From Nanobdellota archaeon (GTDB lineage Archaea; Nanobdellota; Nanobdellia; Woesearchaeales; GW2011-AR4), in NCBI GenBank assembly GCA_022564635.1, contig JADFLA010000006.1, positions 1 through 41,061 of the forward strand: a stretch of 41,061 nucleotides of DNA, given 5' to 3'. The notes under the pieces are model-generated. The model was not told the origin of the DNA and made no database searches. It saw only the letters and a program-made list of their open reading frames with translations. Made by a program: the position numbers and the translations under genes. Below are positions 20,117-28,603 of this stretch, piece by piece; the first letter of the stretch is position 1; every line of letters starts with the position of its first letter.

Positions 20117-21046
20117 TTATTTTTTTGTTGTAAATGGATTTATTGTTTTTAGTTTTATTTTTAATTGAGCTAGTTTTCTATTTATTGTTTCTGGCTCGAT
20201 AAAGGCCAAATGGGCTACAATCATTATTAAAGAGAAGAATGTTATGTTGGATGCAAATAAAATGGAAGAATGAAGCAATATTCCTGCAATAAGCATATAT
20301 TTTCTAGTAGTCTTGAACCATACTAATATTGGAAAGAGGAGTTCTATCAGTAGAGTTGCATAAGTCATAAGCATTACTAGAAAAATATAATTTCCTAAAA
20401 ACTCAAGATTAAATCTTGCAAATTGAGGGTTAGCTAAAAAATAATATACAGCTGTTCCATCTCTCCATGTTGTGCCGGTTTTAGGCAAGAATGCAAAAAT
20501 ATAGACGATTGCAAGCTGTATCTGTATGAGTCTCCTGGGCCATATATACCATTGCTGCCGTTTTTTATGTTCTTTAGAGGGAATATTTTTGTTTCTTTTT
20601 ATGGCGTCAAGGGAAAGACATTTTCCTGATGGTGATATTGCAAGATAAAAGAGCATAAGCCTCATCAAGGTGTCTCCAGAATTAAGGATAAGAGTATTTT
20701 TTTCATGGAGTGAGGATAGCAATATGAATGCAATTATAGCAGAAAACCTAGTATATTTTCCGATAAGGAGCAATAATAAAAATATAATCAATAAAAAGTA
20801 GAATATTATTACAAAGGTTGGACTTCCAAAATAATCAAGAATAGTAAACCTAAATTCTGACCTGAACATACTAGTGCGGCCTGATAAAACACCATCATCT
20901 GAGTAATAATCAACTACAAAAGGAAGATCATTTATTAGGGACAGAAGAATTACAGCAGCTGTCAATATTCTTAGAAGTCCAATTGTTGTATAATCTTCTT
21001 TTTTGAAGAAAAATTCATAAATTATATTTTTTTTAATTATCCACAT
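20117..21046 (-). CDS. HTTM-domain membrane protein (VKG-carboxylase-like / SdpB-like)
   Basis: 'TIGLLRILTAAVILLSLINDLPFVVDYYSDDGVLSGRTS', 'RLIQIQLAIVYIFAFLPKTGTTWRDGTAVYYFL', multi-TM. Confidence 0.8.
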   Translation of the reverse strand: MWIIKKNIIYEFFFKKEDYTTIGLLRILTAAVILLSLINDLPFVVDYYSDDGVLSGRTSMFRSEFRFTILDYFGSPTFVIIFYFLLIIFLLLLLIGKYTRFSAIIAFILLSSLHEKNTLILNSGDTLMRLMLFYLAISPSGKCLSLDAIKRNKNIPSKEHKKRQQWYIWPRRLIQIQLAIVYIFAFLPKTGTTWRDGTAVYYFLANPQFARFNLEFLGNYIFLVMLMTYATLLIELLFPILVWFKTTRKYMLIAGILLHSSILFASNITFFSLIMIVAHLAFIEPETINRKLAQLKIKLKTINPFTTKK

Positions 21047-25798: not shown

Positions 25799-25984
25799 TA
25801 AATCACCCTTTTTTATAATTATAAAAATACTAGTATAAAAATCTTATGTTTACTAAACTTTTGCACTTAGTAATAAAAATATTTATAAATAATCATTTTA
25901 TTCATATGTATATGCAAGAAAAAAATGAAATAACTGCATGACTTATTCTTTTTGTTAGTTATAACTCTAAACATAGTGGTTAAA

Positions 25985-28603
25985 ATGCAAATAACTGAAA
26001 AACAAAAGTATCAATTGAAGAAGTTCATCAAAGAACTAGAGAAGCATAGAGGTAGGCATACAGAGCTTGTTTCAGTTTACATCCCAAAAGATTATGATAT
26101 TATTAAAATTATCAACCATCTGGAGCAGGAAAAGGGTACTGCTACTAATATTAAATCTACTGCAACAAGAAAAAATGTTATTGATGCTTTGGAAAGGATG
26201 ACACAGCATTTACGCTTATATAAGAGAACTCCAGAAAATGGTTTAGCGGTTTTTTCTGGAAATGTTGCAAAAAGAGAGGGCCAACAGGATTTCCAGGTTT
26301 GGAGTATAGAACCCCCTTTACCGTTAAACACTAGGATATACAGGTGTGATAAAGAATTTGTTCTTGAGTTATTAAGAGATATGCTCCAGATTAAGGAAGT
26401 CTATGGCCTTGTTATTGTGGATAGGAGGGATGCGAATATAGCTTATCTTAAGGGTAAAACAATAATTCCTTTGTTAAAGACACATTCTGAAGTGCCTGGA
26501 AAAACAAGAGCTGGCGGTCAATGTCATGTTTTCGGTACTTTAGTCCAATTTACATCTGGCTCCATTCTTAAGATTGAAAATTGTCATAATCCGCACATTG
26601 TTAAAAGTATGATTATGAATAATTTATCAATTAAGGATTCAGCGATAACGGATAAATGGACCACTGAAAAACAAGAAGTGTATAAGATAATAACAAAAAA
26701 CCCCAGAGTAGTTGTCGAATCTTCAAAGGATCATTTATTTTTTATAGCAACTAATGAAGGAGTTATTGAAAAACCTGCAGATAAGTTAAAAGGAGGAGAT
26801 TATTTGATCATGCCTGAAAAAATGGAGATTAAAGGCAAAGTTCAAAATTTGAACCCTTTGAAATATTATAACTCATTCAAAATAAATGAACAAGGAAAAA
26901 TATTGTTTAAACAAAAAAGATTAAAGAAAAAATTACACCAAAGACAGCTCGCTAAAAAATTAGGAATAACTCAAACAGCTGTATCTGTAATAGAATTAGG
27001 GAAAAGAAACGTAAACAGGGGGTTATTAAAAAAATTATGTAATTTTTTTAGTATAAAATTCGAAGAATTTTTGGATGACTATTGTAATCCATATTTATAT
27101 AGAAATGTTGAGTTACCAGGTAAAATCGATGAAAATTTTGCACAATTTTTAGGTTACTATATAGGCGATGGATCTATAGAAAATGGCAGGATAACGTTTT
27201 TTAAGCAAAATACAGAAGTTGTTTTAGATTATAAAAAGAAATTTGACGATTTTTTTAAGATAAATTCCAGTTATAAATTTAGGGAAAATAAGAATTACTA
27301 TCAATTAAGATTTACTAGCAGGCCCCTAGTTAGGCTAATTAAAGAAGAATTCCCTGAAATAAAGAAAGCTAAAAATTCAGAAATTCCTAAAAAAATACTA
27401 GAATCACCTAATGGGGTTGTGGCTTCTTTCCTCAAAGGAATTTATGATGCAGAAGGATACGTTGCTAAAGCAAGGGGAGTTGCTATTGGGATAAATAATA
27501 AACTACTGGCTCAACAGATTCAACTTTTATTGCTTAGATTTTCCATCATTAGTTCGCTTCATGAATATGATAATAGAGCAAATAGATACAGTAATAATCC
27601 AAGATATACAGTCGATACTACGGAAGGAAAATCACTTGAATTATTTAGAAATCGTATAAATTTTACTTCTAAAGAAAAAAGTAATAAGCTAGTTTCCTTA
27701 ATCAACAAAAAATCAATTACAAGTTATGTAAGACAGATAATAATTCCTGGATCAAAAATCAGGTCGATAATAGAAAAAGCAGGCAATAATCTTGAATTGT
27801 TTCCCAAAGTTAATAGTTTCTTTAGAAATGAGAGGATGATGAGTAAAGATGTGTTTAAGAACTCCATATTAGCTTATATCAAAGATAAAAAGTTGTATTC
27901 AGAATTAAAAAAAATCTATGATTATCCAATTTTGCCAGTTAAAATAAGTAAAATCGAAGTAAGCAAAAAACCAACTAAGATGGTAGATATTTCAGTAAAA
28001 GGTCAGAACTTCATAGCAAATGGTATATTTGTACATAATTCAGCTGCCAGATTTGAAAGAATAAGGGAAGGAGCTAAAAAAGATCATTTTAAGAAAGTTG
28101 CAGAGTATATGAAAGAGCAGTTTTTAAAAAATAAAAATTTAAAAGGTATAATTGTAGGGGGTCCAGGTCCAACAAAATATGATTTTATAGATTCTGGCCA
28201 AATAACAACGGAAGTTAAAAAGAAAATCATAGCGATAAAAGACTTAAGTTACACCGGAGATTTTGGTCTAAATGAATTAGTGGAAAAAAGCCAAGATGTA
28301 TTGGCAAAAGAAGGAATTATCGCAGAGAAAAAACTTGTTGATAGGTTTTTGGAACTATTGTCAACAAAACCAGGGATGGTGTCTTATGGTGTTGAGGAAG
28401 TAATGAAAAATTTGAAATTAGGAGCGGTTGATACTTTATTGTTGTCAGAGAAACTTGATGACAAAAAATTAGAAGAATTTGAAAATGAAGCTAAGAAAGT
28501 TGGTACGGATGTTAATATTATTTCTACTGAAACACCAGAAGGAATTCAGGTGAGAGATATGGGAAAGGTTGTTGGTATATTAAGGTATGAGGTTAGTTCT
28601 TAG
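25985..28603 (+). CDS. prf1: Peptide chain release factor aRF1 precursor, interrupted by an intein (first ATG 25985)
   Basis: Exteins: 'YVIP-type N domain ... EVPGKTRAGGQ' and 'SAARFERIREGAKKDHFKKVAEYMKEQF...GIIVGGPGPTKYDF...GDFGLNELVEK'. Confidence 0.93.
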   Translation: MQITEKQKYQLKKFIKELEKHRGRHTELVSVYIPKDYDIIKIINHLEQEKGTATNIKSTATRKNVIDALERMTQHLRLYKRTPENGLAVFSGNVAKREGQQDFQVWSIEPPLPLNTRIYRCDKEFVLELLRDMLQIKEVYGLVIVDRRDANIAYLKGKTIIPLLKTHSEVPGKTRAGGQCHVFGTLVQFTSGSILKIENCHNPHIVKSMIMNNLSIKDSAITDKWTTEKQEVYKIITKNPRVVVESSKDHLFFIATNEGVIEKPADKLKGGDYLIMPEKMEIKGKVQNLNPLKYYNSFKINEQGKILFKQKRLKKKLHQRQLAKKLGITQTAVSVIELGKRNVNRGLLKKLCNFFSIKFEEFLDDYCNPYLYRNVELPGKIDENFAQFLGYYIGDGSIENGRITFFKQNTEVVLDYKKKFDDFFKINSSYKFRENKNYYQLRFTSRPLVRLIKEEFPEIKKAKNSEIPKKILESPNGVVASFLKGIYDAEGYVAKARGVAIGINNKLLAQQIQLLLLRFSIISSLHEYDNRANRYSNNPRYTVDTTEGKSLELFRNRINFTSKEKSNKLVSLINKKSITSYVRQIIIPGSKIRSIIEKAGNNLELFPKVNSFFRNERMMSKDVFKNSILAYIKDKKLYSELKKIYDYPILPVKISKIEVSKKPTKMVDISVKGQNFIANGIFVHNSAARFERIREGAKKDHFKKVAEYMKEQFLKNKNLKGIIVGGPGPTKYDFIDSGQITTEVKKKIIAIKDLSYTGDFGLNELVEKSQDVLAKEGIIAEKKLVDRFLELLSTKPGMVSYGVEEVMKNLKLGAVDTLLLSEKLDDKKLEEFENEAKKVGTDVNIISTETPEGIQVRDMGKVVGILRYEVSS
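26522..28039 (+). other. Intein (506 aa) in aRF1, class 1, with HTH_XRE and LAGLIDADG domains
   Basis: Starts Cys1 'CHVFGTLVQFTSGSILKIENC'; block B-like 'VVVESSKDHLFFI'; HEN motifs 'FAQFLGYYIGDGSI' and 'VASFLKGIYDAEGYV'; ends 'VDISVKGQNFIANGIFVHN' before Ser+1. Confidence 0.93.

Follow-up and report, generated by a model that had tools for sequence, protein, structure and literature searches.

A LAGLIDADG-containing class 1 intein predicted at the catalytic GGQ motif of the release factor aRF1 of DPANN archaea

Introduction

Inteins that occupy conserved active sites in essential genes are already known. In TliVMA/PhoVMA (7qss, 7qst), PI-PfuI of RIR1 (1dq3) and PI-PkoII (2cw7), whose hosts are V-ATPase, RNR or Pol, a two-motif LAGLIDADG homing endonuclease (HEN) is inserted in the Hint domain, and these inteins have Cys1 and a terminal His-Asn. 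Inteins generally insert at conserved active sites (PMC7765530, PMC10643990). For instance, the Prp8 inteins of eukaryotes are found at seven sites of a spliceosomal protein, an essential, single-copy host of core gene expression, and exist in HEN and mini forms (PMC6805012). The haloarchaeal MCM-a/MCM-d inteins reside at a conserved site of the replicative helicase, are patchily distributed and have been shown experimentally to home between species (PMC10643990). Moreover, conditional splicing has been documented for the RadA intein of P. horikoshii (PMC5790916) and a mycobacterial DnaB intein (PMC6195587).

The window of this study, the whole stretch of 41,061 nucleotides that was analysed, is from a Woesearchaeales archaeon and contains an aRF1 gene with an insert of this kind. 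Similar to TliVMA/PhoVMA, PI-PfuI and PI-PkoII, the aRF1 intein has a Hint domain into which a two-motif LAGLIDADG endonuclease is inserted, and it possesses Cys1 and a terminal His-Asn. Its predicted fold superposes on theirs over almost the whole insert, and the sequence identities were 13-18%. Different from these inteins, it resides in a class I release factor, and an extra XRE-type helix-turn-helix (HTH) is found in it and in 34/34 of its close homologs. Similar to the Prp8 inteins, the aRF1 inteins occur in HEN and mini forms in an essential, single-copy gene of core gene expression, but they occupy a single site, that of the catalytic residue in a termination factor, and are found in DPANN archaea. 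Similar to the MCM-a/MCM-d inteins, they are patchily distributed at a conserved site and appear to home between species, although their homing is deduced from sequences. No earlier description of an aRF1 or eRF1 intein was found in the open-access PMC literature. The GGQ/S site of aRF1 (here and below, a slash between residues marks a splice junction) is apparently a new host protein and insertion site, and an unexpectedly widespread one, for a known kind of element.

Results and Discussion

An aRF1 gene interrupted by an insert

Direct translation of positions 25985-28603 (+) of the window gave aRF1 interrupted by an intein of 506 amino acid residues. No stop codon was found inside this frame, the precursor is 872 residues long and the joined extein 366. 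The ATG at 25985 is the best start codon; the program-listed open reading frame begins at a TTG at 25952. The features identified are as follows.

25985-26521, +: N-extein, 179 aa, comprising eRF1 domain 1 and the beginning of domain 2, with GGQ at its end (TIGR03676, Pfam eRF1_1)
26147-26158, +: NIKS motif of the N-extein, a class I release-factor motif
26339-26359, +: YxCxxxF motif of the N-extein, a class I release-factor motif
26513-26521, +: GGQ catalytic motif, its Gln being residue -1 of the splice junction
26522-28039, +: intein, 506 aa, exactly between the catalytic GGQ and Ser+1
26522-26524, +: Cys1 codon
26522-26851, +: Hint N-terminal half, aa 1-110, with block A Cys1 (AlphaFold Hint fold)
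26723-26734, +: block B, S68-K-D-H71, the [T/S]xxH of the Hint N-terminal half
26909-27070, +: XRE/Cro-type HTH, aa 130-183 (Pfam HTH_3, 47.5 bits)
27107-27721, +: LAGLIDADG homing endonuclease domain, aa 196-400 (Pfam LAGLIDADG_3, 64.4 bits)
about 27143-27172, +: LAGLIDADG motif 1, LGYYIGDG
27431-27457, +: LAGLIDADG motif 2, LKGIYDAEG
27929-28039, +: Hint C-terminal half, aa 470-506, with block F D489 (TIGR01443 intein_Cterm, above cut-off)
28031-28039, +: block G, VHN, the intein C-terminus
28037-28039, +: Asn506 codon
28040-28042, +: Ser+1 codon
28040-28603, +: C-extein, 187 aa and stop, beginning with Ser+1, remainder of eRF1 domain 2 and domain 3 (Pfam eRF1_2/eRF1_3)

The frame scored 395.7 bits against NCBIfam TIGR03676 (aRF1_eRF1; cut-off 234.7), and its Pfam domains eRF1_1, eRF1_2 and eRF1_3 flank PF14890 (Intein_splicing), LAGLIDADG_3 and HTH_3. 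With a family score above the curated cut-off, 3/3 eRF1 domains and the NIKS, YxCxxxF and GGQ motifs, the extein is a class I aRF1, as the original prediction had proposed. The junctions of that prediction, exactly at GGQ/S, were correct to the base, and translation reproduced the sizes it had given for the insert and the joined extein. The archaeal aRF1 proteins 4af1 and 3agk share the extein family, domain order and all three motifs with the aRF1 of the window; different from it, their solved chains (345 and 410 residues) are without an insert of such size. The AlphaFold model of the precursor matched both of them as well as solved inteins in Foldseek. The GC contents of the intein, N-extein and C-extein were 28.5, 35.8 and 32.6%, respectively.

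Anatomy of the aRF1 intein

The splice junctions read ...EVPGKTRAGGQ/CHVFGTLVQF...NFIANGIFVHN/SAARFERIREGAKKDH... by direct translation. The score against PF14890 was 71.1 bits, well above the cut-off of 35.8. Residues C1, S68, H71, D489, H505, N506 and Ser+1 were invariant in 34/34 HEN-type homologs, whose identities to the window intein ranged from 46 to 67%. All 34 also possess LAGLIDADG_3 and keep the XRE-type HTH between the Hint N-terminal half and the endonuclease. The acidic residues of the endonuclease motifs are conserved in these sequences as D216 (33 D, 1 E) and E/D311. The AlphaFold model of the intein, with a mean pLDDT of 93.2 and a pTM of 0.92, matched TliVMA (7qss), PI-PfuI (1dq3) and PI-PkoII (2cw7) in Foldseek (E 2.5e-23, prob 1.00). 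The insert, which the original prediction had read as an intein, possesses all class 1 signatures and is predicted to be a class 1 cis-splicing intein. The Gln at position -1 could retard its first splicing step.

Distribution of aRF1 inteins

Pooled searches delimited 96 distinct aRF1 inteins, a number that is a lower bound. The arrangement GGQ/Cys1...His-Asn/Ser+1 and a [TS]xxH match were found in 96/96. They comprised 58 HEN-type inteins (414-571 aa), 37 mini-inteins (130-145 aa) and one of intermediate size (275 aa). Among the matches listed, the carriers were Woesearchaeota, Pacearchaeota, Nanoarchaeota, Aenigmatarchaeota, Diapherotrites/Iainarchaeota and Nanohaloarchaea. In the window's order, 353 genomes were searched, 317 had an aRF1 match and at least 45 of the 317 carried an intein at GGQ/S, of which 36 were HEN-type orthologs, 8 were mini-inteins and one was the 275-aa form. 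The latter (L079/L179 of genome G082) matched the endonuclease region only in parts (query 4-106 and 284-397) and is an apparent intermediate between the HEN and mini forms. Another 23 carriers were identified among 172 genomes from other orders of the class with the DNA pattern GKxxxGGQC and HMM verification. In GTDB r220, aRF1 with GGQ/C was verified in 93 of 114 stretches with the pattern VPGKxxxGGQC among the matches listed, and 92/93 of these were from DPANN or unplaced archaea. The patterns, unlike the orthology and extein searches, demanded Cys1; because they also demanded particular codons, the carrier counts are lower bounds.

Several candidates were rejected. The one exception among the 93 verified stretches, L171 (JAFCBX010000040.1) from a 'Methanosarcinales' MAG, has an N-extein 100% identical to that of Woesearchaeales L048, and its contig is likely a mis-binned Woesearchaeales contig that contaminates that MAG. 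Matches suggestive of non-DPANN carriers, namely one from Bathyarchaeota and those from bacteria, where aRF1 was found in 0/19 pattern stretches among the matches listed, were attributed to chance. G155, the single apparent pseudogene, was not retained as a decayed, stop-containing copy, as the assembly has NN at the position of the break. The split aRF1 of G342, whose halves are adjacent and overlapping without an insert, is a frame break. A scan of IMG/VR viral sequences identified generic endonuclease relatives of 21-38% identity and no aRF1 ortholog or aRF1 intein.

Nearly all of these records are MAGs, and the apparently stop-containing G155 and the 'Methanosarcinales' L171 could be read as signs of an assembly or contamination artefact. 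Both cases, however, are explained by the assembly NN and the mis-binning. Moreover, the two exact junctions are common to 96 distinct sequences from many studies and are therefore not chance, and two closed chromosomes refute such an artefact, which makes this explanation scarcely credible.

A single release-factor gene

Whole-genome searches of two closed chromosomes, CP010426 (archaeon GW2011_AR20) and CP045477 (Ca. Forterrea multitransposorum), each identified one aRF1, which was intein-bearing. The same single-aRF1 picture was obtained for the near-complete drafts G351, G162, G159 and G275. Given that the only aRF1 of the two closed genomes is intein-bearing, these cells must obtain their release factor by splicing, barring errors in both the annotation and the sequence.

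The window genome is a draft of 1.43 Mb that is 87% complete, and the gene described here is its only aRF1 with GGQ. Its further eRF1-superfamily genes encode pelota (contig C10) and a protein of 343 amino acid residues on contig C42 (C42:12887-13618, -; L003:1345-2376). In the latter, KGGWSQGRFERLRD, GGW-SQ replaces GGQ. This protein is without the stop-decoding domain eRF1_1, its nearest Pfam models are eRF1_2, acVLRF1 and baeRF10, and it was the sole match of its type among 39 relatives searched. It is perhaps a ribosome-rescue peptidyl-tRNA hydrolase.

The C42 protein, together with the incompleteness of the window genome, could suggest that the aRF1 gene with the intein is spare or non-functional and that another release factor terminates translation. 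Given its GGW-SQ, its lack of eRF1_1 and its resemblance to acVLRF1/baeRF10, the C42 protein was rejected as a back-up release factor. Also against a spare copy, no other aRF1 was found in the two closed and several near-complete genomes, and the exteins and splicing residues are conserved throughout. Termination by another factor is thus highly improbable.

Mobility and inheritance

The original prediction had called for a survey of related genomes for intein-less alleles, and such alleles exist. In the window's genus, the empty allele of L015 (89% extein identity) runs without a gap as GGQ/SAARFERIREGAKK. In the pairs L060/L098 and L044/L091, whose flanks are 89-95% identical, the occupied allele differs from the empty one by an exact insertion that separates a CAR (Gln) codon from a TCN or AGY (Ser) codon. 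On an extein tree of 89 rows, presence and absence changed at least 24 times, sometimes inside the window's genus. The inteins of L061 and L062, which belong to different families (f35 and f74, respectively), are 0.15 apart and their exteins 2.42 apart; the extein branch of L062 is long, and nucleotide identity agrees (84% for the intein versus 60% for the C-extein). These values indicate a recent transfer between families. For 34 HEN inteins, the correlation between intein and extein distances was weak yet non-zero (Mantel r 0.40), and the history is therefore partly vertical. The dN/dS of the HEN domain ranged from about 0.09 to 0.17 across five pairs, four of them close and one diverged, suggesting that the endonuclease is maintained as a protein. 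Taken with the near-identical inteins across families, the patchiness points to homing of a selfish element.

A different pattern was found for the mini-inteins of family f91. Inteins were present in 15/18 genomes of this family, 13 of them HEN-less mini-inteins of about 130 aa and 2 HEN-type, and 3 genomes were empty. The mini-intein tree followed the extein tree (Mantel r 0.88, 0/5000 permutations, slope about 2.2), which indicates vertical inheritance of the HEN-less mini-intein in 13/18 genomes. The co-occurrence of empty, HEN and mini states within f91 agrees with the homing-cycle model of inteins. The long survival of a non-homing mini-intein at an active site may be due either to a function or to precise deletions being rare. 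The Hint tree contained only 3 mini/HEN switches; its backbone is weak, the trimming of HEN inteins may group HEN forms, and it was not relied on.

It had also been proposed that splicing autoregulates termination, i.e., that conditional splicing in response to stress, redox, temperature or aRF1 level gates termination globally. In favor of such a switch, the insert lies on the catalytic residue, two closed genomes have no release factor besides the one that carries it, mini-inteins that are unable to home persist vertically through f91, and RadA and DnaB inteins splice conditionally (PMC5790916, PMC6195587). However, a required regulatory role is disfavored by the patchy presence inside genera, among them that of the window; the HEN-bearing forms are clearly mobile, and no conserved switch element was identified. 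Mini-inteins would likewise persist if they were seldom deleted precisely from GGQ. Moreover, any aRF1, intein-bearing or not, depends on aRF1 already present to complete its synthesis, and GGQ is a site of the conserved kind that inteins generally target (PMC7765530, PMC10643990), so that gating is neither supported nor needed to explain the data. Sequence evidence for a splicing switch was not found, and we regard global gating as quite unlikely. Where a mini-intein is vertically fixed, as in f91 and for mini-inteins in other orders, protein splicing might be a rate-setting or conditional step for the sole aRF1 and so control termination capacity, but this too is unlikely.

Proposed mechanism

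The insert is very probably a selfish class 1 intein with a LAGLIDADG HEN at GGQ/S of the sole aRF1, which is spliced out and homes into empty alleles. We infer from the sequences that splicing and endonuclease cleavage take place. After translation of the 872-aa precursor, Cys1 would attack the Gln(-1)-Cys1 bond, the chain would be transferred to Ser+1, and cyclisation of Asn506 would free the intein and join GGQ to SAARFERIRE, giving an active aRF1 of 366 residues. Splicing probably occurs during or shortly after the exit of the C-extein from the ribosome. The unspliced precursor is presumably inactive, because 506 residues directly follow the catalytic Gln.

The free intein would cleave the corresponding site of empty aRF1 alleles, into which it would be copied by recombination. 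GGQ is a likely homing target, since the amino acid sequence there hardly varies and cells would not survive an imprecise loss. The XRE-like HTH of the intein probably supplies extra DNA contacts; DNA specificity and autorepression are candidate roles for it. Across DPANN archaea, the element would cycle through gain, loss and decay, with HEN-less mini-inteins persisting by vertical descent.

All proteins of these cells, the aRF1 precursor included, thus appear to be released by a splicing product. Given that HEN-type, mini and empty alleles are found together within families, the homing cycle can be traced at one essential active site. The mini-inteins of 130 aa, which follow an invariant GGQ, are candidate compact splicing tools. 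In addition, DPANN annotation that splits the aRF1 open reading frame would falsely count aRF1 as missing.

Other observations

Elsewhere in the window, positions 20117-21046 (-) encode an SdpB-family protein of this DPANN archaeon, which scored 67 bits against NCBIfam TIGR04033, below the cut-off of 178.4. The window genome also contains a second intein (G000:C26, L008:1000-3354, -), which interrupts a TruB/Cbf5-like pseudouridine synthase, another RNA/translation-related host. The Pfam domains of this gene are, in order, TruB_N, Intein_splicing, LAGLIDADG_3, TruB_C_2 and PUA.
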